Shown piece after piece: positions 7,501 through 20,902 of a stretch of 20,902 bases of DNA. Positions within the stretch are counted from its first letter, which is position 1; the number at the start of each line of letters is the position of its first letter. The notes below the pieces were generated by a model. The model was given only the letters and a program-made list of their open reading frames with translations. It had not been told where the DNA came from and ran no database searches. Made by a program: the position numbers and the translations under genes. Source of the DNA: a virus; the IMG/VR virus record IMGVR_UViG_3300025011_000219, positions 1-20,902 of that record. One strand, given 5' to 3'.

Positions 7501-8408
7501 TTAGTATCCAAAGGTGAGACGTACCCCGGCATAAACTTCTTCTTGAAGTCATCTACGAGTTTATTCTTACCTAACCTATTCATGGCATTGCCTACAGACG
7601 TTACCACAGGGGCAGTACCGGGTATTCGTGTTTGTGGTAAAACTTTCGTGTTTACTAATGGTATCTGTAACCCTGCGGTGAGGTATTTCTTGTCTGTGGG
7701 TAACTTAGTCTTTAGGTTTAAACCCTGACTCTGAGCAGTATTCAAAAGACCTCGTATATTATTAACCTGATCCTCGGTTAAAGACGGGAATTTATTAATG
7801 ATATTATTTAGTAAATCCCCTGTGGTAGAACCTTTCAGTCCTCCCACAATCTCAGGGGAGAGGTGAGACGCTACCTGCTCTGCTGTACCCTGTCCTAACG
7901 CTTTACTCAACAACGGCATACCCTGTGCTGTACCCGCCGCAGCCCTACCCGTACCAAAAGTTAACCAGTTTAACGGGTCGAGAGGGTTAAGTACGTCACC
8001 CACAAAACCCGCTACGCCTGCTGTAGACGGGGCAACACGCACGTTAAGTATTTCTTTATCAAACCAAGGTTCGTCCGACACGCCCCAATTGGTGAGTATG
8101 TCCTTAGTGCGTAACTTCTCCTCGCCCATATAACCGCGCTTTAGTGCTTGTAATGGGTCAAACTCACCGGGAGTCTCGCCTATACCGGGAGCAAGCACCT
8201 CAGACACTAACCCTGTGGCGGCATGACCAGAACGCAAGAGATACTCAAAAATTTTGGGTAACGTCTGGTCATCTTTAGGAGGCATGGTTAAGTCATCCTG
8301 ACCCACAGCAGATAGACGCTTGCGCGTATTCAATATCTCATTCTGAACCCGTTGCTGATAATCTACCTCATCCTCAATAGGCTTTAAATTAAACGGTACA
8401 TATGCCAT
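4599..8408 (-). CDS. Large polyvalent virion/ejection protein with embedded ART-like domain
   Basis: A 1269-residue protein probably packaged in the head and injected with the DNA. Residues 1-590 carry Gly/Ala-rich stretches (about 125-190) and helical regions with no family I recognise. Residues about 597-758 look like an ADP-ribosyltransferase of polyvalent proteins: VFYRGG, then GNGVYLTDDPLVAKGYA, then EHLSYLVFNPKDLKKV. Residues about 800-1060 resemble the LPD38-type region of large polyvalent phage proteins (TPGHIPRDFASNMYNLWLMG, FDYSELTPFEQKVMRNVIPFYTWLRKNVPLQ). The C-terminal 200 residues are Pro/Leu-rich. The ATG follows AAAGGTAGGTGATAAATA. It is the largest gene here and lies where podoviruses keep internal virion proteins, after the tail nozzle and before lysis. 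The injected-effector role is inferred. Confidence 0.75.
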   Translation of the reverse strand: MAYVPFNLKPIEDEVDYQQRVQNEILNTRKRLSAVGQDDLTMPPKDDQTLPKIFEYLLRSGHAATGLVSEVLAPGIGETPGEFDPLQALKRGYMGEEKLRTKDILTNWGVSDEPWFDKEILNVRVAPSTAGVAGFVGDVLNPLDPLNWLTFGTGRAAAGTAQGMPLLSKALGQGTAEQVASHLSPEIVGGLKGSTTGDLLNNIINKFPSLTEDQVNNIRGLLNTAQSQGLNLKTKLPTDKKYLTAGLQIPLVNTKVLPQTRIPGTAPVVTSVGNAMNRLGKNKLVDDFKKKFMPGYVSPLDTKDVYKTLKGLEGQPGVEGSTLNEAQDFLQGVVKGTEDSIRYQAGEGEKYLNALFDGMSKDRQSELLYQVSPSGGFTKLFDTYGKSAVDEIQKLGYSPQEALAAKAFHDLRGTIAKTFNDNQIPMDEMWSWVPMILKRKPSTGEGAAIKLAFGGKDYVPQTLDNDLLNLVAKHYPNMLQRQLTFGAGSPHEVNSVLQGTGYKPIAEDHLYNVMSTVNERFIRAVETKKAVDKIINQYGLKPEDLQAGGMRSLPDGYEVFRIATDKNTGKIVFNPVDATEHATFMGGGNVIDDSKGKVFYRGGVKGQPVGRLAEESTIGNGVYLTDDPLVAKGYADIRAGKNGVSEVLETRLKVKEEEILDLSKSDILPITLKQGWALVLRDLMNSDKHYVQGAALKALESLGKDAPLKSMIGGFNAEFTKFLQGKGYKALVASEGGEGAIGEHLSYLVFNPKDLKKVSAKPDKPLDTSTMFAMPKDFARVWQDYQSIHYNESSGALYKFITKATSQFRTLSYMVTPGHIPRDFASNMYNLWLMGMRTPKHLGTSHSAALDLEKNIIFPTTLNRDNPPGEGWSYLVRTASGKLKASNAPVDGEFEAFVRTNRAGNVERRLNKTITTPNGDISMYDVIREANSRGVIDTGWWSTEGPETAGMKAMSKSEKAKSWVTTLNPQKHPWTQFFVRQTKLTDNTSRIMGFVDNLQKGDDLGTAATKIKTYLFDYSELTPFEQKVMRNVIPFYTWLRKNVPLQIKESLKQPGKLATAGKYHEGISEEITPENTPRYLQKQASMLLPGGKSYLTPPMPYQDLGRLPLSLEGMMEQLSNVNPLFRVPVEMAINKKFFSGLPIENYPGQVADKNNGALGELLGQSGVPWVEDKRGLNYILDNIPLYRNVTTMAPLADPRIWGNFNEEVANSPDLTKDYNKLLSFLIGPQLAASGRAKEIATYEERDRLRAIIRLLKDQGMQIPDVRDLE
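6129..6620 (-). other. ART-like (ADP-ribosyltransferase) domain segment inside the large virion protein
   Basis: Encodes residues about 597-760 of the large protein. The possible NAD-binding and catalytic elements are Arg601 in FYRGG, the GVYLTDDP block around Tyr623, and Glu743 in GEHLSYLVFNP. The DNA is visibly AT-richer than its flanks (especially about 6400-6500). It contains none of the CCACA/TGTGG pentamers that recur about every 130 bp elsewhere in the gene. Both traits suggest that the domain was acquired separately. Exact edges are estimates. Confidence 0.6.
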
Positions 8409-8418
8409 TATTTATCAC

Positions 8419-9777
8419 CTACCTTTGGAACCCACCGAGAATGTTTGATAAATGGTTAAACGGGTTAATAGTCATACTACCTGATCCTATGTTTGAGAGA
8501 AAGTCAAAGAAACCCCCACCTGAGTCTGTGGTACTCTTTGCCGCACCCCCATCATCATACAACTGCTCTAAGGTATTGATACCTTGATTGGCTAATGTCG
8601 GGGATAGTACACCTGCGTTACGCTGATAGTTCAAGTTCCTTATAGCATCTGCTATAACCGTGTTTCTCTCTTTTGTAGTCTTAGCCTGGCTTAACAAGTT
8701 TCCATAACCATTCATCATCTCGCCGTAGGCTACTTGCTGTGCCTGCATAGACTTAGAATCGCCCTCTTGGTTCCAACCGAAACCTGCCTTAATCTTAGCG
8801 TCAGTCTCAGTCTTAGAGGTATTAGCGTTCGTACGGCTAATATCATTCTGCTCTTTACCTAACTTATAAGAGTTATCCGTCTGCTTATTACCTAGCATAT
8901 AGTTCCACAAATTATTAAGCAGGCTATTATCAGTGTTCTGTTGTGGAATAGGCGTCTTACCTGCGACCTGAGCGAATAACTCTTGACCGGACGACTTAGG
9001 GTTAACCTGCATACCGAACAACTCTGACAATGCTGTGGCAGCCTGAGTATTAAACTGCCTCGTCTGCTCGTTTAGTTTCTCTCTGTCCATTGTAGGTGAT
9101 CCGAACAAGTTACCTGTACGGTCAGACATGCTCATAGTGTTAGCAAAGTTTTGATTGTCCATGTTAGAACTCAAACCGAGTACATCATACATATTCTTAA
9201 AGTCCTGCTGTTTCTGTGCCAACGCCTGAGCCATGAACATAGGTATCATTTCAGCAAGCCTAGCGTTATAGTCTGAGTCAATCTGAGCCATCCTGTCACC
9301 TGTGGATGCTGAGTTAACAATACCCCTTCGATTCAATTGGTTCATGGTCTTATTCTGCGAATCCCTAATACCTCTCTCGGCTACTGATTTCGCTGCTGTA
9401 TAGTTCGGGTCGCTTTTAGCGTCGTATTTAAAGTTCCTTAATTCATTCATGTAATTCTGTAGTGCAGTCATTTGACTACTCTGCGACTGTGGAGAGTCCT
9501 TATAGCGTTGTTGCATTGGATCGTATCCCACACTCTGTAACGCTCCCATTAAATCCTGTGGGTTCATATACGACCTACCCTCTACCACAGAGGTAGGTTT
9601 GAACGCTGACGTTTGACCATTCGACCCTTTCAGCGAGAATGTACCTGCACCCTGATCCCATCCGATATTACCTGGATTGTACCCGTACTGCGAAAGGAAT
9701 TGCCTAACCCCTACCGTACCTTGTGGGCCTCCAGGGTTAAGCGGTTTATTTATATCGTTTAAATAACTTACTGCCAT
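8419..9777 (-). CDS. Virion protein with copper-amine-oxidase-N-like (stalk) domain
   Basis: A 452-residue protein, probably an internal or tail-associated virion component. Residues about 22-90 (VGVRQFLSQYGYNPGNIGWDQ, then GTFSLKG, then NPQDLMGALQSVGY) show the two-repeat pattern of the copper amine oxidase N-terminal/stalk domain that is common in Firmicutes surface proteins. Residues about 95-240 are long, Gln/Asn/Met-rich helices, likely coiled coil (MIPMFMAQALAQKQQDFKNMYDVLG). The rest is polar and Gln/Asn/Ser-rich. The ATG follows a near-perfect AAGGAGGTG. It sits directly before the large ejection-type protein, so the two may be packaged or ejected together. No enzymatic motif is seen. 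Confidence 0.7.
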   Translation of the reverse strand: MAVSYLNDINKPLNPGGPQGTVGVRQFLSQYGYNPGNIGWDQGAGTFSLKGSNGQTSAFKPTSVVEGRSYMNPQDLMGALQSVGYDPMQQRYKDSPQSQSSQMTALQNYMNELRNFKYDAKSDPNYTAAKSVAERGIRDSQNKTMNQLNRRGIVNSASTGDRMAQIDSDYNARLAEMIPMFMAQALAQKQQDFKNMYDVLGLSSNMDNQNFANTMSMSDRTGNLFGSPTMDREKLNEQTRQFNTQAATALSELFGMQVNPKSSGQELFAQVAGKTPIPQQNTDNSLLNNLWNYMLGNKQTDNSYKLGKEQNDISRTNANTSKTETDAKIKAGFGWNQEGDSKSMQAQQVAYGEMMNGYGNLLSQAKTTKERNTVIADAIRNLNYQRNAGVLSPTLANQGINTLEQLYDDGGAAKSTTDSGGGFFDFLSNIGSGSMTINPFNHLSNILGGFQR

Positions 9778-14398: not shown

Positions 14399-14662
14399 TT
14401 AACAATCCCATTTACGTAAGGACAAAGCCTTTCTTGTAGGTCTGCCTTTTTCATCTTTCATAGGCCCTTCCATACCTCCCATTCTAGCACAGAAGGATTT
14501 TCTTCTTGATGCCGACTTAGGTGATTTCTTAGCTTGCTCTTTAGATACGGGAGGTTTAAGATTACTACCTGGGTTTTCCTTTTCATAAGACTTACGACCT
14601 TTTTCATTTAAACCACCTGATTTACTCTTGCCCTCTTTCCTACTCCAAGCTGGCGTTTTCAA
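14399..14662 (-). CDS. DUF6321-like small basic phage protein, 87 aa
   Basis: A Lys/Arg/Ser-rich protein with the conserved layout of a small family widespread in tailed phages: TPAWSRKEGKSKSGGLNEKGRKSY near the N-terminus, a LKPPVSKEQAKKSPKS linker, then RRKSFCARMGGMEGPMKDEKGRPTRKAL and a terminal KW-C. I recall this family as DUF6321; its function is unknown. The high positive charge and position among head-tail genes suggest a DNA-associated or head-internal role. The start is TTG at 14662 with AGAGGTG at 6 bp. It is the first gene after the internal terminator of the late operon. Confidence 0.75.
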   Translation of the reverse strand: MKTPAWSRKEGKSKSGGLNEKGRKSYEKENPGSNLKPPVSKEQAKKSPKSASRRKSFCARMGGMEGPMKDEKGRPTRKALSLRKWDC

Positions 14663-14682
14663 TTATCTCACCTCTTTATACA

Positions 14683-14720
14683 ATAAAAGCGAGGTAAGTT
14701 ATTACCCCGCCTTATTTTTT
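14683..14720. terminator. Intrinsic terminator inside the late operon (bidirectional form)
   Basis: GCGAGGTAA (14689-14697), loop GTTA, TTACCCCGC (14702-14710) forms a 9-bp stem with one G-U pair. On the minus strand it is followed by TTTTATTGT; on the plus strand by CTTATTTTTTTATT. It therefore has the form of a terminator in both directions. It lies 20 bp after the head-fibre gene and just before the DUF6321-like gene. Confidence 0.8.
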
Positions 14721-14731
14721 TATTCAATTCG

Positions 14732-15403
14732 TTATATTACAATGTACTGGATATATGCAAACCCCACAATCCCTGCCGATGCTCCGGAGGCTACCGAACC
14801 AGTAACCCACTTACCCGCAGCAAGTTTTTGTCTGCTAGTTCCGTTAGTGCCTTGATCCTCTACGTTGTCAAATACCCCTGCGGCAGCGTTAACATCTAAC
14901 CCGTCAATGAGGTTGTCTATCTTGGTAGTAGCCGAGGCTGCGGTAGTACCACAATCAAGGGTACAGGCTCCGGTTGATGCGGTTGTTACGTCAAGGATTA
15001 ACCGTTGAACGATGATTGATACTGTCTCGTCGTTCTGCCAAGAGAATACGCCACCCGCCGTATCTACCGCTGCTAGTGCTATCTTAGCCACCTTTACCAC
15101 ACAATCCGCGTTATCAAGCAGATTTAACTCTGCTGCGGTTACTAAGGCACCGTCTAATATGTTCAACTCGGCGGCAGTAGAGGTAACAGAAGTACCTGCC
15201 CCTGCACCTAGTTTTAAGTCAGCCACGGCAAGAACGTCCACATTTTTATTAGCCCCCAGTGCTAAGGCCTTACTTGCTACGGCTGTTCCTGCAACTGAAC
15301 CATCAAGCAAATTTAACTCAGCCGGTGTCGCTGTGACTTCCACACCATTAACTTTCAACCCCCCAGCATTTAAAGCACTAGGAGTAAAATCAGTATCAGG
15401 CAA
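14732..15403 (-). CDS. Head-fibre/decoration-like protein with AELNLLD repeats
   Basis: A low-complexity Ala/Gly/Val/Leu/Thr-rich protein with three copies of a (T/S)xxAELN(L/I)LD motif in its N-terminal half, the hallmark of many phage head-fibre and tail-fibre shaft proteins. The C-terminal half (VSIIVQRLILDVTTAST, TLDCGTTAASATTKIDNLIDGLDV and a GFAYIQYIVI end) looks like a beta-rich head domain. A GTG at 15412 is in frame but too near the ribosome binding site. The TTG at 15403 follows the same AAAGGTAGGTGATAAAT module that precedes the 1269-residue protein. It was probably the direct neighbour of the major capsid gene before the HNH gene entered between them. Confidence 0.72.
   Translation of the reverse strand: MPDTDFTPSALNAGGLKVNGVEVTATPAELNLLDGSVAGTAVASKALALGANKNVDVLAVADLKLGAGAGTSVTSTAAELNILDGALVTAAELNLLDNADCVVKVAKIALAAVDTAGGVFSWQNDETVSIIVQRLILDVTTASTGACTLDCGTTAASATTKIDNLIDGLDVNAAAGVFDNVEDQGTNGTSRQKLAAGKWVTGSVASGASAGIVGFAYIQYIVI
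15110..15331 (-). repeat. Three degenerate AELNLLD-coding repeats
   Basis: Units at 15299-15331, 15149-15181 and 15110-15139 encode TATPAELNLLDG, STAAELNILDG and TAAELNLLDN. At the DNA level only part is shared, such as ATTTAACTC on the plus strand in the first and third. They are ancient or selected protein repeats, not a recent duplication, and fit a trimeric fibre shaft. Confidence 0.7.
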
Positions 15404-15438
15404 ATTTATCACCTACCTTTAAACTTTCGTAATTAAAC

Positions 15439-16152
15439 CTAAGTACCTCTTACCACCTTACCGTAATTTTGAGGTCTTAATTCTAAGCCATACTCTCTGC
15501 GTTTGATTAACAGCGTTTTGCGTGTTATTCCTAACAACTCAGCCGCCTCTTTAACTTCTCTACCTTCTAAGGCTTTAATAATATCCTCTTTGGATATTTC
15601 TTTCTTATTCCAAGGCACTTTTTGATGGATACGTGCATGGCAAGAACGGCAAAGAGTTATTAGATTGGACATATCATTGTTAGGTTTTTCATCCTGACCT
15701 GACTTGTCAATGTGGTGTACCACTAACCTCTTAGTATTACCACAATGCTGACAGGTGTGGTTATCACGTTCAAGAACTTTGTATTTGTTACCGCCAAAAC
15801 GTTCTTGATTATGATACTCTAAATCTCTCGCATTAATCTTTTCCTTATGCTTTTCCCTGTGTTTTTTAGCATTAATGCTTTTTCTACCACTCTCCACGGC
15901 ACGTTTATACACCGCTAACCTAGAACACTCTGTAGAGCAGTATAGTTGATGACTATAGGAATACTTATCAGGTACAAACTCCTTGCTACACATGGGACAC
16001 ACCTTTGGGTACAAAAAATTAGACCAATCAGTATTATGTCTACAGTCTTTCTGCCTAATCAATTCTGCTTTATCAGCACATTTCTTAGAGCAGTATTTAA
16101 ACCTGCCCGAGTGTTTATCAATAGCCTCACCGCAAATAATACAAACTGACAT
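15439..16152 (-). CDS. Free-standing HNH homing-type endonuclease with zinc fingers and Fis-like HTH
   Basis: A 237-residue selfish-type endonuclease. Domains in order: two zinc-finger-like pairs (Cys4/Cys7 with Cys21/Cys25; Cys52/Cys55 with Cys72/Cys76), a basic helix (90-112), the HNH core with structural cysteines (Cys134/Cys137, Cys168/Cys171), LVVHHID (His147), Asn163 and His172/His176, and a C-terminal Fis-type helix-turn-helix (about 198-222, AAELLGITRKTLLIKRREYGL). Such enzymes cut phage DNA lacking the gene and spread by repair. It splits two virion genes, capsid and head fibre, without harming either frame. The ATG has an ideal AGGAGGTG at 6 bp and its own promoter, both tied to an inverted repeat described separately. 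Confidence 0.88.
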   Translation of the reverse strand: MSVCIICGEAIDKHSGRFKYCSKKCADKAELIRQKDCRHNTDWSNFLYPKVCPMCSKEFVPDKYSYSHQLYCSTECSRLAVYKRAVESGRKSINAKKHREKHKEKINARDLEYHNQERFGGNKYKVLERDNHTCQHCGNTKRLVVHHIDKSGQDEKPNNDMSNLITLCRSCHARIHQKVPWNKKEISKEDIIKALEGREVKEAAELLGITRKTLLIKRREYGLELRPQNYGKVVRGT

Positions 16153-16158
16153 TTAACA

Positions 16159-16202
16159 CACCTCCTAGATATATAATAACCTAGGAGTGCGGTTACTGTC
16201 AA
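16159..16202 (-). promoter_or_regulatory. Promoter nested in a hairpin that masks the HNH ribosome binding site
   Basis: On the minus strand, a perfect -35 TTGACA (16202-16197) and -10 TATTAT (16178-16173, 5 of 6) are 18 bp apart. A perfect 7-bp inverted repeat, CTCCTAG (16187-16181) and CTAGGAG (16168-16162), encloses the -10 in its 12-base loop region. The 3' arm is the Shine-Dalgarno of the HNH gene. A read-through capsid transcript can fold the hairpin and hide the site. A transcript from this promoter, starting near 16166, lacks the 5' arm. Confidence 0.7.
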
Positions 16203-16219
16203 GTGTAACTTATGTTATA

Positions 16220-17107
16220 CTAGGTTCCGAGGCTTGCAACCATGCCCCTCCAGTCCGAATACCCTTGGGTGCATCTCATGTAACCACTGTACTTTTGGAT
16301 ATGGGTATCGAAGTTAGTCTCACGATTAAATTCCGGTCTAATTCTCCACCAGTAAAGCAGGTTATCGAAGGAATCATCCTGCAAGAACCAAGCAGTTGCA
16401 GAAGTCAGGTAGTCCATGATAATCATCCTGAGTTTACCCTTAACAGAGTTAATGTTGTTGTTAGCGGAATCCACTTGCTGTGTGGATTGTAACAATACAG
16501 TACACTTGAACTCAAGGTCTGCCGGAATGATTAACTTCTTAGGCATACACTGAATTTTCAAACCTGCGTCATCTACCTGTCTACGAGCAAGCAATAAAGC
16601 CGCTTGTAGGTTAACTTCGTTCAATGCGCCAGACGCTAAGTTATCACAAGTACCGCCTGCATTACCTCTCAACGGGTGAGAATCGGAGAATAACGCCACA
16701 CCGTCATAGCCCGTGTTAGTGAAACCACCATTCAACACCGCTGCGGCATTTTTCTCTACCTTAACCCTACCTCCTTTACCCAAAGATTTAGGTAACTTAC
16801 GAATTACATCGTACATTTCATCGTCCACAAGTTTACGCTCGACTTGACAACCTTTCGCATACTCTGTGTGGGTATATACAACGTCGTCGCCGAGGTTAAT
16901 GCTCTCGTAGGAGATTGACCCCATGGATTCTTTTTCTTCCCATTCGCCCAAACCTGCAACGTGTTGGTCAGTCTCTTTGGCTTTCTTGGAGGTCATTACT
17001 TTAAATACCTGTGGGAACTGCTCCGGTAATTCGGTATAAGACTCGTAGAAAACTTTACGAAGTCCAGGCTCAAGAAGTACACCAAAATTTGAACTAGATA
17101 CAGCCAT
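16220..17107 (-). CDS. Major capsid protein (Mu gpT-like, HK97 fold)
   Basis: A 295-residue major head subunit. It resembles the Mu gpT-type major head family: a short N-terminal arm (FGVLLEPGLRKVFYESYTELP), an acidic E-loop-like region (LGEWEEKESMGSISYESINLGDDVVYTHTEYAKGCQVERKLVDDEMY), the characteristic DGVALFSDSHPLRGNAG (135-151), a long helix (EVNLQAALLLARRQVDD), LIIPADLEFKCTVLLQS and a C-terminal TQGYSDWRGMVAS. There is no internal scaffold domain, which fits the separate scaffold gene upstream. The ATG follows AAAGAGGTGA. It follows scaffold and decoration genes in normal head-gene order. Confidence 0.85.
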   Translation of the reverse strand: MAVSSSNFGVLLEPGLRKVFYESYTELPEQFPQVFKVMTSKKAKETDQHVAGLGEWEEKESMGSISYESINLGDDVVYTHTEYAKGCQVERKLVDDEMYDVIRKLPKSLGKGGRVKVEKNAAAVLNGGFTNTGYDGVALFSDSHPLRGNAGGTCDNLASGALNEVNLQAALLLARRQVDDAGLKIQCMPKKLIIPADLEFKCTVLLQSTQQVDSANNNINSVKGKLRMIIMDYLTSATAWFLQDDSFDNLLYWWRIRPEFNRETNFDTHIQKYSGYMRCTQGYSDWRGMVASLGT

Positions 17108-17133
17108 TTATATTTCACCTCTTTACTTTTTAA

Positions 17134-17577
17134 TTAGTTAACTACAAGTGCTTTCTTAGCCGCTAAACACTTAACGTACGCCACACCTGCTGTGTTGTCG
17201 TAACCCACAACAACCCAAGCACCGTCTGTAGTGTCATCCAAGTCAATCTTGTTTAGTGCTGTGGATTTCAAGTCAAAGGCTGTGCCAATGTCAGCATCAG
17301 CGAGTGATGTTTTAGAACCTGTTACGTAGTTAACTTTGAAAACTACGTCGGGTAAAGCAAGGATAACTTTTACAGGATCGCCTGCGGAAGTTGCCACGGA
17401 GATAGTATCCTGTACCACACCGACAACGGCAGTATCAGCCGCACCGCCGTTAGTAATCAAACCAGACGCTAATGCCACAGTGTACCCTTTGGTGTAAGTA
17501 AGACTTGCGGCAGAAGGAAACTCCTTTACGGGAATTACAGAATCCCCGCCCGTTCTGTGGGAGTATTGAAAAGCCAT
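17134..17577 (-). CDS. Capsid decoration/cement protein
   Basis: A 147-residue, beta-rich, Ala/Thr/Val/Gly-rich protein with no cysteine cluster, membrane segment or enzyme motif. The N-terminal SAASLTYTKGYTVALASGLIT followed by TAVVGVVQDTIS matches the usual opening of small capsid-stabilising (DUF2190-like) decoration proteins. It would bind the capsid surface after expansion. Its position between scaffold and major capsid genes, with a strong AAGAGGTGA ribosome binding site for high expression, supports this. The family name is inferred. Confidence 0.7.
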   Translation of the reverse strand: MAFQYSHRTGGDSVIPVKEFPSAASLTYTKGYTVALASGLITNGGAADTAVVGVVQDTISVATSAGDPVKVILALPDVVFKVNYVTGSKTSLADADIGTAFDLKSTALNKIDLDDTTDGAWVVVGYDNTAGVAYVKCLAAKKALVVN

Positions 17578-17591
17578 TTATAAATCACCTC

Positions 17592-18404
17592 TTATTTCTT
17601 CTTTTTCAAAAAGTTAAGCCAATCGTCAATGTTCTTGGAATTCTTCAAAGCGTTATGCTCGTCAGCCTCAATCCCAAAAGCGTTTGCCACAAAAGCCTCA
17701 TCCTGGCTCTCGAACTTATTGGCTTGACCTTGTGGTGAGCCTTTGGATGATACCACACCTGCGCCTGCATTAGACTCACGCTGTGCGATTGTACGCTGTT
17801 CTGCCTCCCTCGCTAACTGCTTAGAACGATTCTCGCCGTTTACCGACCAGTAAGCCTGCCGGAGTGTCATCCCTGTCTTTGCGGCATGGGCTTTCACGGA
17901 CTCGGCTACCTCGTCGTAGTCAGAATAGATAGGATCGGCCTTGAGTTCTGATTCTTCAATCTTTTGCTGTAAGGCTAAATTCTGCTCGTACACCTGACGA
18001 ACAGTACCAGCCATACCGGATAAATGTTGATATGTGGTAGGGTCTAAACCTGATTGTTTCATTTGCTGCTGCTGTTCAAATGCTTCGAGTTTTTCCGCTA
18101 ACTGCTTTTCGTTCATGCCTGTAGCCCTCATCATTCTATCAGTGAGAGCCTTGTACTGAGAGATCTCCGCATCGTGCTTTGCCTTGAGTTTAGCTTTCTC
18201 GGCACGTATCGCAGCGTTAGCGTCCGGTTGCTTGTCCTGCCCGGCGACAGCAGTATCATCAATCACGCCCGTAGTATCCCCGCCCTGCTCATCAGTTCCG
18301 GAGAAATCAGCACCCTCGCCACCTGCACCTGCACCATCGTCATCCACAAACTTCATAGACTTGTTGAAAAACTTCTCCCAAGGTCTTTTATTTACTCTAA
18401 ACAT
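17592..18404 (-). CDS. Capsid scaffolding protein
   Basis: A 270-residue, highly charged protein with scaffold layout: an acidic Gly/Asp-rich disordered segment (residues 20-60), a long coiled coil (about 65-155: AEKAKLKAKHDAEISQYKAL, then LAEKLEAFEQQQQMKQ and LALQQKIEESELK), a helical middle, and a short basic C-terminus ending FLKKKK that would bind the inner capsid surface. The ATG follows AAGGAGGATACT. Its location directly before the decoration and major capsid genes is standard for scaffolds. No protease motif is seen. Confidence 0.82.
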   Translation of the reverse strand: MFRVNKRPWEKFFNKSMKFVDDDGAGAGGEGADFSGTDEQGGDTTGVIDDTAVAGQDKQPDANAAIRAEKAKLKAKHDAEISQYKALTDRMMRATGMNEKQLAEKLEAFEQQQQMKQSGLDPTTYQHLSGMAGTVRQVYEQNLALQQKIEESELKADPIYSDYDEVAESVKAHAAKTGMTLRQAYWSVNGENRSKQLAREAEQRTIAQRESNAGAGVVSSKGSPQGQANKFESQDEAFVANAFGIEADEHNALKNSKNIDDWLNFLKKKK

Positions 18405-18495
18405 AGTATCCTCCTTAACGTCACTTGGACGACTCGCCCGACAATACCCCGGCGACGGGTTTATGTTTTGAAACTAACGCATTTTCGTTAGTTGG
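18405..18495 (-). other. Structured leader upstream of the scaffold gene
   Basis: This 91-bp non-coding gap contains a perfect 8-bp inverted repeat, AACTAACG (18472-18479) and CGTTAGTT (18486-18493), with a 6-base loop, and a GC-rich block (about 18433-18460) able to form further stems (TCGCC with GGCGA). No T-tract follows the hairpin on the minus strand, so it is not a normal terminator. It could be an RNA processing or stability element before the highly expressed head genes. Confidence 0.45.
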
Positions 18496-18630
18496 TCATG
18501 GCCTAATCCTTAAGGTCATAGTTGTTTCAGTTTCTTCTACAACTTCCCACCATTTCTCTTCCGTGTCGGGGCAATAGGGGTCATCTTGAGTACCTGTACC
18601 AATTTTTGCTACGGTGATTATTTCTCCCAT
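18496..18630 (-). CDS. Small hypothetical protein, 44 aa
   Basis: A short frame read directly from the sequence: ATG at 18630-18628, stop TGA at 18498-18496. The start overlaps the stop of the lectin-like gene by one base (TAATG) and follows GGAGGTGG at about 5 bp, both strong signs of a real gene. The protein is acidic with a Trp pair: starts MGEIITVAKIGTGTQDDPY, then EEKWWEVVEE, ending TLRIRP. It looks like a small beta-strand protein and is not recognised. Confidence 0.65.
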   Translation of the reverse strand: MGEIITVAKIGTGTQDDPYCPDTEEKWWEVVEETETTMTLRIRP

Positions 18631-19190
18631 TACGCCACCTCCACTTTGAAATTGTCATATCTATCGTCTATGTTGGTTAATTGCCTAAAACCGTGCTTAG
18701 TTGCAGTAATATTAAAATTTGATGTTATACTTATTCTCTCAATGTCGTCTAAGTAAACTATAATATTGGAGTCAATAGCTGAGATTTTAATTTTGTACGT
18801 ATTACCAGGCACAGGAGTAAAGGTATAATTACCAATTTCTGTAGGAGTATTAATTACAACTGAATACAACGATAACCCTGTCGATGATAACCTAGCAAGC
18901 ATGTAATTACTTACATCGGTAAGTCTAAAAGCAATACCCGCATATGTTTGAAATACTAAATCTGAGGAAATCGTAATATTTGCATGTTTAGTATCTATAG
19001 TTTCTATATTTGTTGCTCCACCAGACGAGACTAAATACGCCTTGTTATTACTAACACCCCATACCCCTCTTACCGCTTCCCATAATTGACCAGTATCACT
19101 TCTGCCAAGTGTAGTAATGGAATCTGCACGATTAAAACTATCTAATACACGCAAAATTCTACGATTTTCCAAAATACCTAACTGTCTCAT
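18630..19190 (-). CDS. LamG/concanavalin-like lectin-domain virion protein
   Basis: The protein reads as one concanavalin-A/laminin-G-like sandwich: DSFNRADSITTLGRSDTGQLW, WGVSNNKAYLVSS, ISSDLVFQTYAGIAFRLTDVSNYMLARLSSTGLSLYSV, NTYKIKISAIDSNIIVYLDDIERISI and a closing strand DDRYDNFKVEVA. Such domains bind glycans, so it may be a capsid-surface adhesin or part of a fibre. A GTG at 19205 is in frame. The ATG at 19190 is preferred because it overlaps the upstream stop (ATGA). The coding DNA is clearly AT-richer than its neighbours and has none of the CCACA/TGTGG pentamers common elsewhere, suggesting recent gain. It is unusual to find a lectin between portal and scaffold. Confidence 0.7.
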   Translation of the reverse strand: MRQLGILENRRILRVLDSFNRADSITTLGRSDTGQLWEAVRGVWGVSNNKAYLVSSGGATNIETIDTKHANITISSDLVFQTYAGIAFRLTDVSNYMLARLSSTGLSLYSVVINTPTEIGNYTFTPVPGNTYKIKISAIDSNIIVYLDDIERISITSNFNITATKHGFRQLTNIDDRYDNFKVEVA

Positions 19191-19792
19191 ACCGTATAAC
19201 CCCACATGGTCAACTCCGTAATTGCAGATGCACCAGCAGCACCAATAGTTAGAACCATGTCTGTATTTGCAGTACCCTCCACGATTGGAGTGCTTGATGA
19301 AACGCCTATGCGTGTACCCGTAGGACTTGCATTACCGACAACATCTGTAAATTTTACAGTTGTTCCATCCTTAATTTGCGATAAAAAATCGTTTCCTGCT
19401 GCTGCTGCTCTCAAACAAACAAGATACCCCATACAGTAATGTTTTTTACCTGATACTGCTGTTTGCGTTGCTGTTGCAATAGCGTTTGCACTACTTGTTG
19501 CAATTGCTGTCCATTTTGTTGCACCGTATGGGTATACTGCTCCCCCAGGTATACTACCAGTTAGTTGAGTAAGCACTTCTCCCTTAGCGTTAGTTCTTAT
19601 CGGTGCTAAGTCACCGTCTGTATAAGCAGGGTCGGCTACCACATACTTTCCTGCTACGAATGATGCTTTAGTTGGTACTGCTGCATCAGGCGTACTCTCT
19701 GTGGCAAGTTTAGACGCTAAAGAAAATGTACCGTCACCATTATCTACAAGTTTTACGGGGTTTCCACCCCATATCACAGTTGTATCTGCCAT
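19187..19792 (-). CDS. Hypothetical head-fibre/decoration-like protein
   Basis: A 201-residue, Ala/Thr/Gly/Val-rich protein. The N-terminus (WGGNPVKLVDNGDGTFSLAS) resembles the opening of phage and prophage structural proteins that display a C-terminal domain. The rest is predicted beta (SGKKHYCMGYLVCLRAAAAGND, TVKFTDVVGN, then MVLTIGAAGASAITELTMWGYTV). Its last codons overlap the start of the lectin-like gene, so the two are co-translated and may form one surface appendage, with this one as the capsid-bound base. The ATG follows GGAGGT at 7 bp. No firm family assignment. Confidence 0.65.
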   Translation of the reverse strand: MADTTVIWGGNPVKLVDNGDGTFSLASKLATESTPDAAVPTKASFVAGKYVVADPAYTDGDLAPIRTNAKGEVLTQLTGSIPGGAVYPYGATKWTAIATSSANAIATATQTAVSGKKHYCMGYLVCLRAAAAGNDFLSQIKDGTTVKFTDVVGNASPTGTRIGVSSSTPIVEGTANTDMVLTIGAAGASAITELTMWGYTV

Positions 19793-19795
19793 ACT

Positions 19796-20107
19796 CTATA
19801 CCTCCAATACATGAACATTTACAGGTGGCCCACCCATGCCATGATACCCACAATGAGGGCAGGTAACATAAAGTTTATCCTGTGGGTCTCCTGGTCTGCG
19901 GTCACGTAACGCTACTCGCTCGCATCTTACGCAAGTAGGATTACGCATAATGTGACCCTGTAAATCCCTGCTACGTGTTAGATTATCTTGAAACGCGTGT
20001 CTTAAATATTTTTGTTCAATCTCTCGCATACCAATTTTAGGCTTGGGTGCTATCTGTGCAAGATAATCAGCAACACGTTTAACTTTTTGCTCAAATGTCA
20101 ATGCCAT
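19796..20107 (-). CDS. Small zinc-ribbon protein next to portal, 103 aa
   Basis: Residues 1-55 are helical and basic (FEQKVKRVADYLAQIAP, then REIEQKYLRHAFQDN). Residues 59-89 hold a zinc-ribbon-like set, CVRC ... CPHCGYHG (Cys59, Cys62, Cys83, Cys86). No DNA-modifying or helicase motif is present. The ATG overlaps the portal stop (TAATG) after GGGAGGTGG. Its location between portal and fibre genes suggests a role in head assembly, or simple co-expression. Function unknown. Confidence 0.7.
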   Translation of the reverse strand: MALTFEQKVKRVADYLAQIAPKPKIGMREIEQKYLRHAFQDNLTRSRDLQGHIMRNPTCVRCERVALRDRRPGDPQDKLYVTCPHCGYHGMGGPPVNVHVLEV

Positions 20108-20902
20108 TACTGACCACCTCCCATAGCACCCATTAATGCTTGTAGTATCTCAGGCGGTATATCCCCGCCCTGAGGTTGACCGTCCTGTGGAAACGCTTGT
20201 CCCTCCATACCCGGAGGTATTTGACCATTCATCTGTGCCGTTACTTCCGGCGGTACGTTACGACCTGCGAATGTACCCTGTGGGTTAAGCGGGTCGATAA
20301 TCGGCCAATTCATCTGATTCTTGAGGAACAGCCTTGCCTCCTCTGTGGTAACAATACCATTCTGGTGCAACTCGTTAGTTGCTTGGTAGAGGAAGGATAC
20401 ACTTGTCGGTAATCCTGCACCGATACTGAACTCTAGGTCGAAGTCAGCATCTTTAGTAATCTGCTGTTGGCCTGACTCGTCCATAAGAGGTACGAGAGTA
20501 TGTCCCTCCATGCCCGTCTCCGGATTGAATATAGATTTAGGTATAAGTTTCGGTATTGAATTAAGGTCTGAACCTCTAAACCAAATGTAGTCGTTATCTT
20601 TAGAATTAAGTATACGGAACGCTCTTTCCTCTGTGAAATATTCTTTCACGTAGTCGAGCATGAGTTCCATGACTTCCTGCATCCCTGCCTGTAGCATCAT
20701 TCGTTTGTGGTTTGCTCGTCTGTTCCCCGCCTCTTGTAATGCAAGGATGGCGGCGGCGGCTCGGAGCGATCCAGGCTTACGCCCTTCCACAATATCTGAC
20801 CTACCTGATATAATCTCAGCCTCACGAAAACCCATGTCACGGCGGTTCTGTATGTACGCTGGCATATTCGGAGGTTCGACCATTTTCCAGGCAGACGGGT
20901 CA
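20107..20902 (-). CDS. Portal protein, C-terminal part (5' truncated by window)
   Basis: The frame stays open to the edge of the window, adding about six codons (DPSAWK) upstream of the first visible Met at 20883, so that Met is probably internal. The visible part has long helices with typical portal features (ISGRSDIVEGRKPGSLRAAAAILALQEAGNRRANHKRMMLQAGMQEVMELMLDYVKEYF), a beta region (YIWFRGSDLN, then DADFDLEFSIGAGLPTS), the helix-turn segment QNGIVTTEEARLFLKNQ, and a Pro/Gly/Gln-rich C-terminus. This fits the stem, crown and tail of a podovirus-type portal, the ring through which DNA enters and leaves the head. The assignment is supported by the order portal, scaffold, capsid. Confidence 0.75.
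   Translation of the reverse strand, partial: DPSAWKMVEPPNMPAYIQNRRDMGFREAEIISGRSDIVEGRKPGSLRAAAAILALQEAGNRRANHKRMMLQAGMQEVMELMLDYVKEYFTEERAFRILNSKDNDYIWFRGSDLNSIPKLIPKSIFNPETGMEGHTLVPLMDESGQQQITKDADFDLEFSIGAGLPTSVSFLYQATNELHQNGIVTTEEARLFLKNQMNWPIIDPLNPQGTFAGRNVPPEVTAQMNGQIPPGMEGQAFPQDGQPQGGDIPPEILQALMGAMGGGQ

Follow-up and report, generated by a model that had tools for sequence, protein, structure and literature searches.

In this viral DNA, an HNH endonuclease gene directly follows the major capsid gene and is preceded by a match to a host-type promoter that lies inside a long inverted repeat, the 3' arm of which holds the ribosome-binding site of the endonuclease gene. The sequence itself shows the control elements and how they overlap, an empty site in relatives and the recurrence of the arrangement beside other endonuclease genes. 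We consider it likely that the whole forms a cassette at the 3' end of the capsid gene, encoding a free-standing HNH endonuclease, possessing its own promoter and insulated from read-through transcription. The term window denotes the whole stretch of 20,902 nucleotides that was analysed.

The endonuclease gene and its predicted nested promoter

The endonuclease gene and its neighbours all lie on the minus strand. L009 and L010 are two related viral contigs.

16220..17107, minus strand: major capsid gene (Mu gpT-like; Mu-like_gpT, E 1e-17; phrog_371, E 3e-26), adjoining the HNH gene upstream
15439..16152, minus strand: HNH endonuclease gene, 237 aa (Pfam HNH, E 4e-7; phrog_1271 HNH endonuclease, E 9e-24)
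14732..15412, minus strand: next gene of the operon, downstream of the HNH gene; directly after the capsid gene in L009 and L010
14686..14713, minus strand: intrinsic terminator, the sole one detected in 14500-18500; also in L009 and L010

The gap between the capsid and HNH genes is 67 bases, and the scan of 14500-18500 found no terminator between them. Since none intervenes, and since the downstream gene and the terminator are common to the relatives, an RNA reading through from the capsid gene into the HNH gene is to be expected. After the terminator, at 14399-14662, is an 87-aa gene (phrog_4689) that is not at that place in L009 or L010. The HNH protein has an HNH domain at residues 134-177 with the motif residues intact (Pfam HNH above the cut-off, and phrog_1271), a helix-turn-helix at residues 185-221 of its C-terminus (HTH_8, E 1e-4) and, read by eye, two Cys4-type motifs at its N-terminus. 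Its gene is a separate ORF past the capsid stop codon and the capsid protein is complete, so that the gene does not lie within an intron or intein; its product is probably a homing endonuclease of the free-standing kind.

The control elements overlap one another as follows.

16197..16202, minus strand: -35 hexamer TTGACA, which doubles as the base of the hairpin 5' arm
16179..16202, minus strand: 5' arm of a 22-pair hairpin (-35 and spacer), missing from the predicted RNA of the nested promoter
16173..16178, minus strand: -10 hexamer TATTAT, within the hairpin loop (16178-16171)
16146..16170, minus strand: 3' arm of the hairpin (Shine-Dalgarno, leader, start codon, codons 2-3)
16161..16166, minus strand: Shine-Dalgarno AGGAGG, all bases paired in the predicted long RNA; 16166 is the predicted transcription start
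16150..16152, minus strand: start codon ATG of the HNH gene, two of its three bases paired in the hairpin

The promoter, TTGACA and TATTAT with an 18-bp spacer, matches the host sigma-70 type at 11 of 12 positions and is the best and only such site on the minus strand; sites matching at least 11 of 12 are expected by chance 0.39 times per shuffled window, both strands counted. The initial annotation had described the repeat CTCCTAG (16187-16181) and CTAGGAG (16168-16162, minus strand), with the Shine-Dalgarno in its 3' arm and the -10 in its loop, and all three are found where it placed them. The seven pairs that it recognised hold as the inner part of the hairpin, the full stem of which is longer: the predicted RNA fold of 16202-16146 has 22 pairs, some of them G-U, is interrupted by bulges and runs from an outermost pair 16202/16146 to an innermost pair 16179/16170, with a stability of about -26 kcal/mol. 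No dinucleotide shuffle was equally stable (z -5.7). The -35 hexamer has its pairing partners in the start codon and in codons 2-3. The predicted start at 16166, the first base of the Shine-Dalgarno, is downstream of the entire 5' arm, in line with the suggestion that an RNA from the nested promoter would begin at or inside the 3' arm.

The proposal that the ribosome-binding site is hidden on a long RNA and open on a short one also agrees with the calculated folds. By prediction, 19-20 kcal/mol would be needed to open positions -14 to +3 in the long RNA and about 4 kcal/mol in short RNAs starting at 16164-16170; no other of the 21 gene starts in the window is as costly, the runner-up being at 13. 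When the sequence was shuffled with the -35, -10, Shine-Dalgarno and start codon held fixed, 1 of 5000 shuffles folded equally well and 0 of 1000 masked the start region equally well. The hairpin is thus far outside what chance gives with these motifs in place. Since the leader of the short RNA would start at the Shine-Dalgarno, its translation may be weak.

An insertion at the capsid gene end

The capsid proteins of L009 and L010 are 94-95% identical to that of the window, and both contigs are without the HNH gene, the capsid gene being followed by the homologue of 14732-15412. The promoter and the repeat are likewise absent at this place; L010 has one 7-base CTAGGAG elsewhere. The joint absence of gene, promoter and hairpin indicates that they arrived together. 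The GC content of 15440-16219 is 37.8% compared with 44.3% for the whole window. The junctions are placed as follows.

16220..16240, minus strand: capsid-gene end (VASLGT stop), the final six sense codons of which are all different in L009, five silently and one with a residue change
15464..16219, minus strand: the insert, with promoter, hairpin and the greater part of the HNH gene; L009 and L010 do not have it
15439..15463, minus strand: right-hand insertion junction, formed by the last HNH codons (GKVVRGT stop); aligns in frame with the L009 capsid-gene end

The HNH gene terminus GTGGTAAGAGGTACTTAG can be aligned in frame with the terminus GTGGGAAGTTTAGGTACTTAG of the L009 capsid gene. The simplest reading of this one insertion would be that the element brought a recoded capsid end, leaving the HNH gene to end at the old capsid stop. 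Of 291 six-codon stretches of the capsid gene, 16 have an equal number of base changes, and the tract may simply be variable given that the L010 end is divergent too. The capsid 3' end diverges among close relatives (window 16220-16260; about 6848-6888 in L010), and in L010 the last capsid codons and the stop are strongly different despite there being no insert, as if by an earlier conversion. Elsewhere in the head operon, which is otherwise 88% identical, neither L009 nor L010 gave a match to window 18496-19536 (a 191-aa gene and most of a 201-aa gene); this variable block sits between scaffold-like and portal-side genes.

No DNA match was found in the phage collection and no close relative carrying the HNH gene in the collections. 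HNH relatives from viral and genome contigs were mostly IscB-like, commonly sharing the HNH core alone, and were set aside as of no use for comparing leaders. A further relative, L011, is part of L147 (IMGVR_UViG_3300024999_000722) and is 98% identical to window 16879-20902. At 583-2154 of L147, a gene that matches thymidylate synthase (phrog_85, probably ThyX) at its two ends is split by an HNH-bearing intein-like segment, and the amidase-like ORF beside it has an S-layer-homology-like end, which suggests a Bacillota host. The relatives, all of them fragments, gave no match to sigma-70 region 4 or to an integrase; a search of them for a T7-type RNA polymerase was of a kind that gave no match in any control genome.

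Related arrangements at other loci

Two pattern scans of viral contigs and one control scan were made, keeping ORFs with a Shine-Dalgarno and a start, so that the pattern by which the majority of the comparison cases were picked up itself contains the hairpin. Masked starts with nested promoters were found before an HNH_3 gene (L239, the upstream gene of which is a possible virion protein, E 7e-4), before an endonuclease VII gene following a gpT-like major head gene (L111) and before a LAGLIDADG_1 gene (L020). Among the 2253 background genes that the patterns missed, 64 have a promoter with its -10 ending 12-28 nt before the start, and 3 of them have a start masked by at least 12 kcal/mol, the strongest being a small HNH gene, L360 (Pfam HNH E 0.009, under the cut-off). 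In the window and in L239, L111, L020 and L360 the predicted leaders are 12-17 nt long and begin at the Shine-Dalgarno or just before it. L232 and L112 were excluded as clean cases; in L232 an HNH ORF (phrog_1271) at 8374-9150 (reverse complement coordinates) lies wholly within a 984-aa ORF in a different frame.

As clustered, 5 of 29 hairpin-gene clusters are endonucleases, compared with an estimated ~1% of genes, a share that is exploratory because the endonuclease seeds were drawn partly from the same hits. The complementary pattern gave 49 ORF-linked hits and a control pattern with a non-complementary arm gave 47, so that raw counts hold no excess and the difference is only in masking and gene identity. 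Nested-promoter hairpins are also found before dCMP deaminase genes (L199, L243) and regulators (L265, L227), and hence the device is not specific to endonucleases; it may belong to a wider class of read-through-insulated promoters. A nested sigma-70 promoter with an anti-Shine-Dalgarno in its spacer precedes non-endonuclease phage genes in L199, L243, L218, L242, L197, L275 and L265.

A case retrieved through its capsid protein (L152, 43% identity), and not through hairpin or endonuclease, has an unrelated endonuclease gene (phrog_3322, endonuclease-VII-like) directly after the capsid gene, one that L150 and L151 (48%) are without. Its promoter is TTGTTA-17-TATAAT, the -10 region of which pairs with the Shine-Dalgarno/start region (z -4.75). 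The masking is modest, with an opening cost of about 9-11 compared with 4, which 102 of 1000 motif-fixed shuffles reach.

The initial annotation had pointed to covarying changes in the arms, and these were examined in another family, one of capsid-adjacent endonuclease-VII genes, because no close relative with the HNH gene of the window was in the collections. The family (L013) was collected by protein similarity alone and has 19 close members. All 19 stand after the major head gene, and each carries a strong stem at its start region (opening cost 16-25), with the Shine-Dalgarno arm itself paired in 18. The remaining member, L471, was not counted as masked, its stem standing before the Shine-Dalgarno and its arms being unrelated in sequence to those of the rest; this leader stem, upstream of 1501, resembles the seg43(25) hairpin (PMC2988022). 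Across the seven distinct leaders of the family, 99.1% of the cells are paired and two pairs are changed on both sides, each double change in one sequence, with 10 of the 16 pairs invariant. The covariation score is 0.155, compared with a shuffle mean of 0.110 (12 of 500 shuffles reach the observed value) and 0-0.071 for slid versions. This is moderate evidence, drawn from the aligned leaders, for selection on the structure of the hairpin. The masking hairpin with its two compensatory pairs was thus found and the nested promoter was not: no clear sigma-70 promoter was seen nested in the family, which therefore backs only the masking half of the model.

Masking is not general among genes of this type. 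A survey of 50 viral contigs took in 46 endonuclease genes, of which 28 had a Shine-Dalgarno and could be scored; a general masking of HNH-type genes was rejected, the median opening cost being 6.8 compared with 6.4 for 2301 background genes (p 0.5). One endonuclease VII gene, in the 170-kb viral contig L438, is masked at 17.5 kcal/mol. If the device matters, then it would be under special circumstances, for instance in an operon with strong transcription.

Mechanism, precedents and alternative readings

From the elements described above we infer promoter activity, the start site, the difference in translation and homing activity. A polymerase arriving from the capsid operon would copy both arms of the hairpin, and the folded read-through RNA would conceal the Shine-Dalgarno and the start codon, so that an abundant late message would give little endonuclease. 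RNA from the nested sigma-70-type promoter would start at the Shine-Dalgarno, without the 5' arm, and would be translatable. Insulation from capsid-operon read-through is better supported than an early-on/late-off timing. The latter had been part of the initial proposal and goes beyond what the sequence shows: should the phage depend on the polymerase of its host from beginning to end, a sigma-70-type promoter may fire at every stage of infection, perhaps dampened by the traffic from upstream, and the hairpin would only keep read-through mRNA from contributing to the product.

The logic is that known from the I-TevI gene of T4, and the host-type promoter is the variant; the likeness in logic and the difference in promoter class had both been recognised at the outset, and the comparison with other loci strengthens them. 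In I-TevI, I-TevII, I-TevIII, segB and mobE of Aeh1, hairpins sequester the ribosome-binding site and a phage promoter gives RNA without the 5' part (PMC2988022; PMC3014915), the endonuclease-specific promoters of T4 being middle or late and never early (PMC2988022). As with I-TevI, the endonuclease gene of the window lies within another transcription unit, a long RNA would cover its Shine-Dalgarno and the RNA of the adjacent promoter would be too short to fold. The nested promoter of I-TevI is of the phage late class and its masked RNAs are early or middle, whereas here the promoter is of the host sigma-70 type, TTGACA-18-TATTAT, and follows the major capsid gene, with a read-through RNA that is presumed to be late. 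The T4 genes e, soc and 49 also have a start region masked on a long RNA (PMC3014915), but they are resident phage genes under phage control and not mobile elements. T4 and Aeh1 belong to a different phage group, and no kinship in sequence is claimed. Davis, Simons and Kleckner are reported to have described in 1985 how the IS10/Tn10 transposase is protected from outside promoters, a work that PMC2965389 cites along with that of Beuzon (1999) on IS200. In IS10 and IS200, RNA structure over the ribosome-binding site of the transposase blocks expression driven from outside while the element's own sigma-70 promoter works. The cassette would resemble IS10 in being a mobile element with folding of the ribosome-binding site against outside transcription and a sigma-70 promoter of its own; it differs in that IS10 is an insertion sequence encoding a transposase, the structure there uses the element end and an antisense RNA adds a further layer. 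A literature search, mostly without subscription papers, found no capsid-adjacent or sigma-70 version and nothing beyond the two T4 reviews.

The palindrome may instead be a DNA operator at which either the HNH protein, by way of the helix-turn-helix in its C-terminus, or another repressor would block the promoter, in the way that I-TevI acts on its own late promoter, with the RNA hairpin as a by-product or a second layer. The inverted repeat does flank the -10, and the protein has a predicted helix-turn-helix. The promoter region is also weakly similar to the empty capsid-gene end of L009, which would agree with the homing-site-like operators of the T4 intron endonucleases (PMC2988022), but the similarity does not reach significance (shuffle p 0.07) and was set aside. 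The extension of the pairing past the 7-bp repeat to 22 pairs, with bulges and G-U, fits an RNA rather than an operator, and at other endonuclease genes the arms differ yet still hold the Shine-Dalgarno. We regard the operator as an unlikely replacement for RNA masking, and the two could coexist, as in I-TevI.

Slightly less likely still is that the hairpin alone matters, silencing the read-through RNA, while the promoter match is incidental or inactive and the endonuclease is made at trace level. Chance sigma-70 matches do occur at the rate given above, and the L013 family retains its masking hairpin without a clear nested promoter; against this, the match is the best of its strand, its -10 falls in the loop and the placement recurs in L239, L111, L020 and L360. 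That hairpin and promoter together are a functionless coincidence seems very improbable: there is but one example of the long inverted repeat and no gene-carrying relative was found, but the shuffled controls, the 22 pairs, the arrival with the insertion and the analogous arrangements at other loci all argue otherwise.

The read-through-insulated cassette that we prefer might extend further. Tentatively, and with the odds rather against it, unrelated endonuclease families (HNH, HNH_3, endonuclease VII, LAGLIDADG) may have settled repeatedly behind major capsid or other structural genes with a compact cassette whose host sigma-70 promoter makes up the 5' arm and loop of a hairpin covering the Shine-Dalgarno. 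Their expression would come from that promoter, perhaps early in infection, and late capsid RNA would give none; the recoded capsid 3' end carried by the element may in addition shield the element against self-cleavage. For free-standing endonuclease genes there is a dilemma, in that the best-conserved sites adjoin essential and very strongly transcribed genes. An element of 57 bases acting as promoter, insulator and translational lock would explain their persistence behind capsid genes and would permit a timing reversed relative to that in T4. The device is short, and could serve as a search signature for mobile endonucleases and for other genes that need shielding from read-through.
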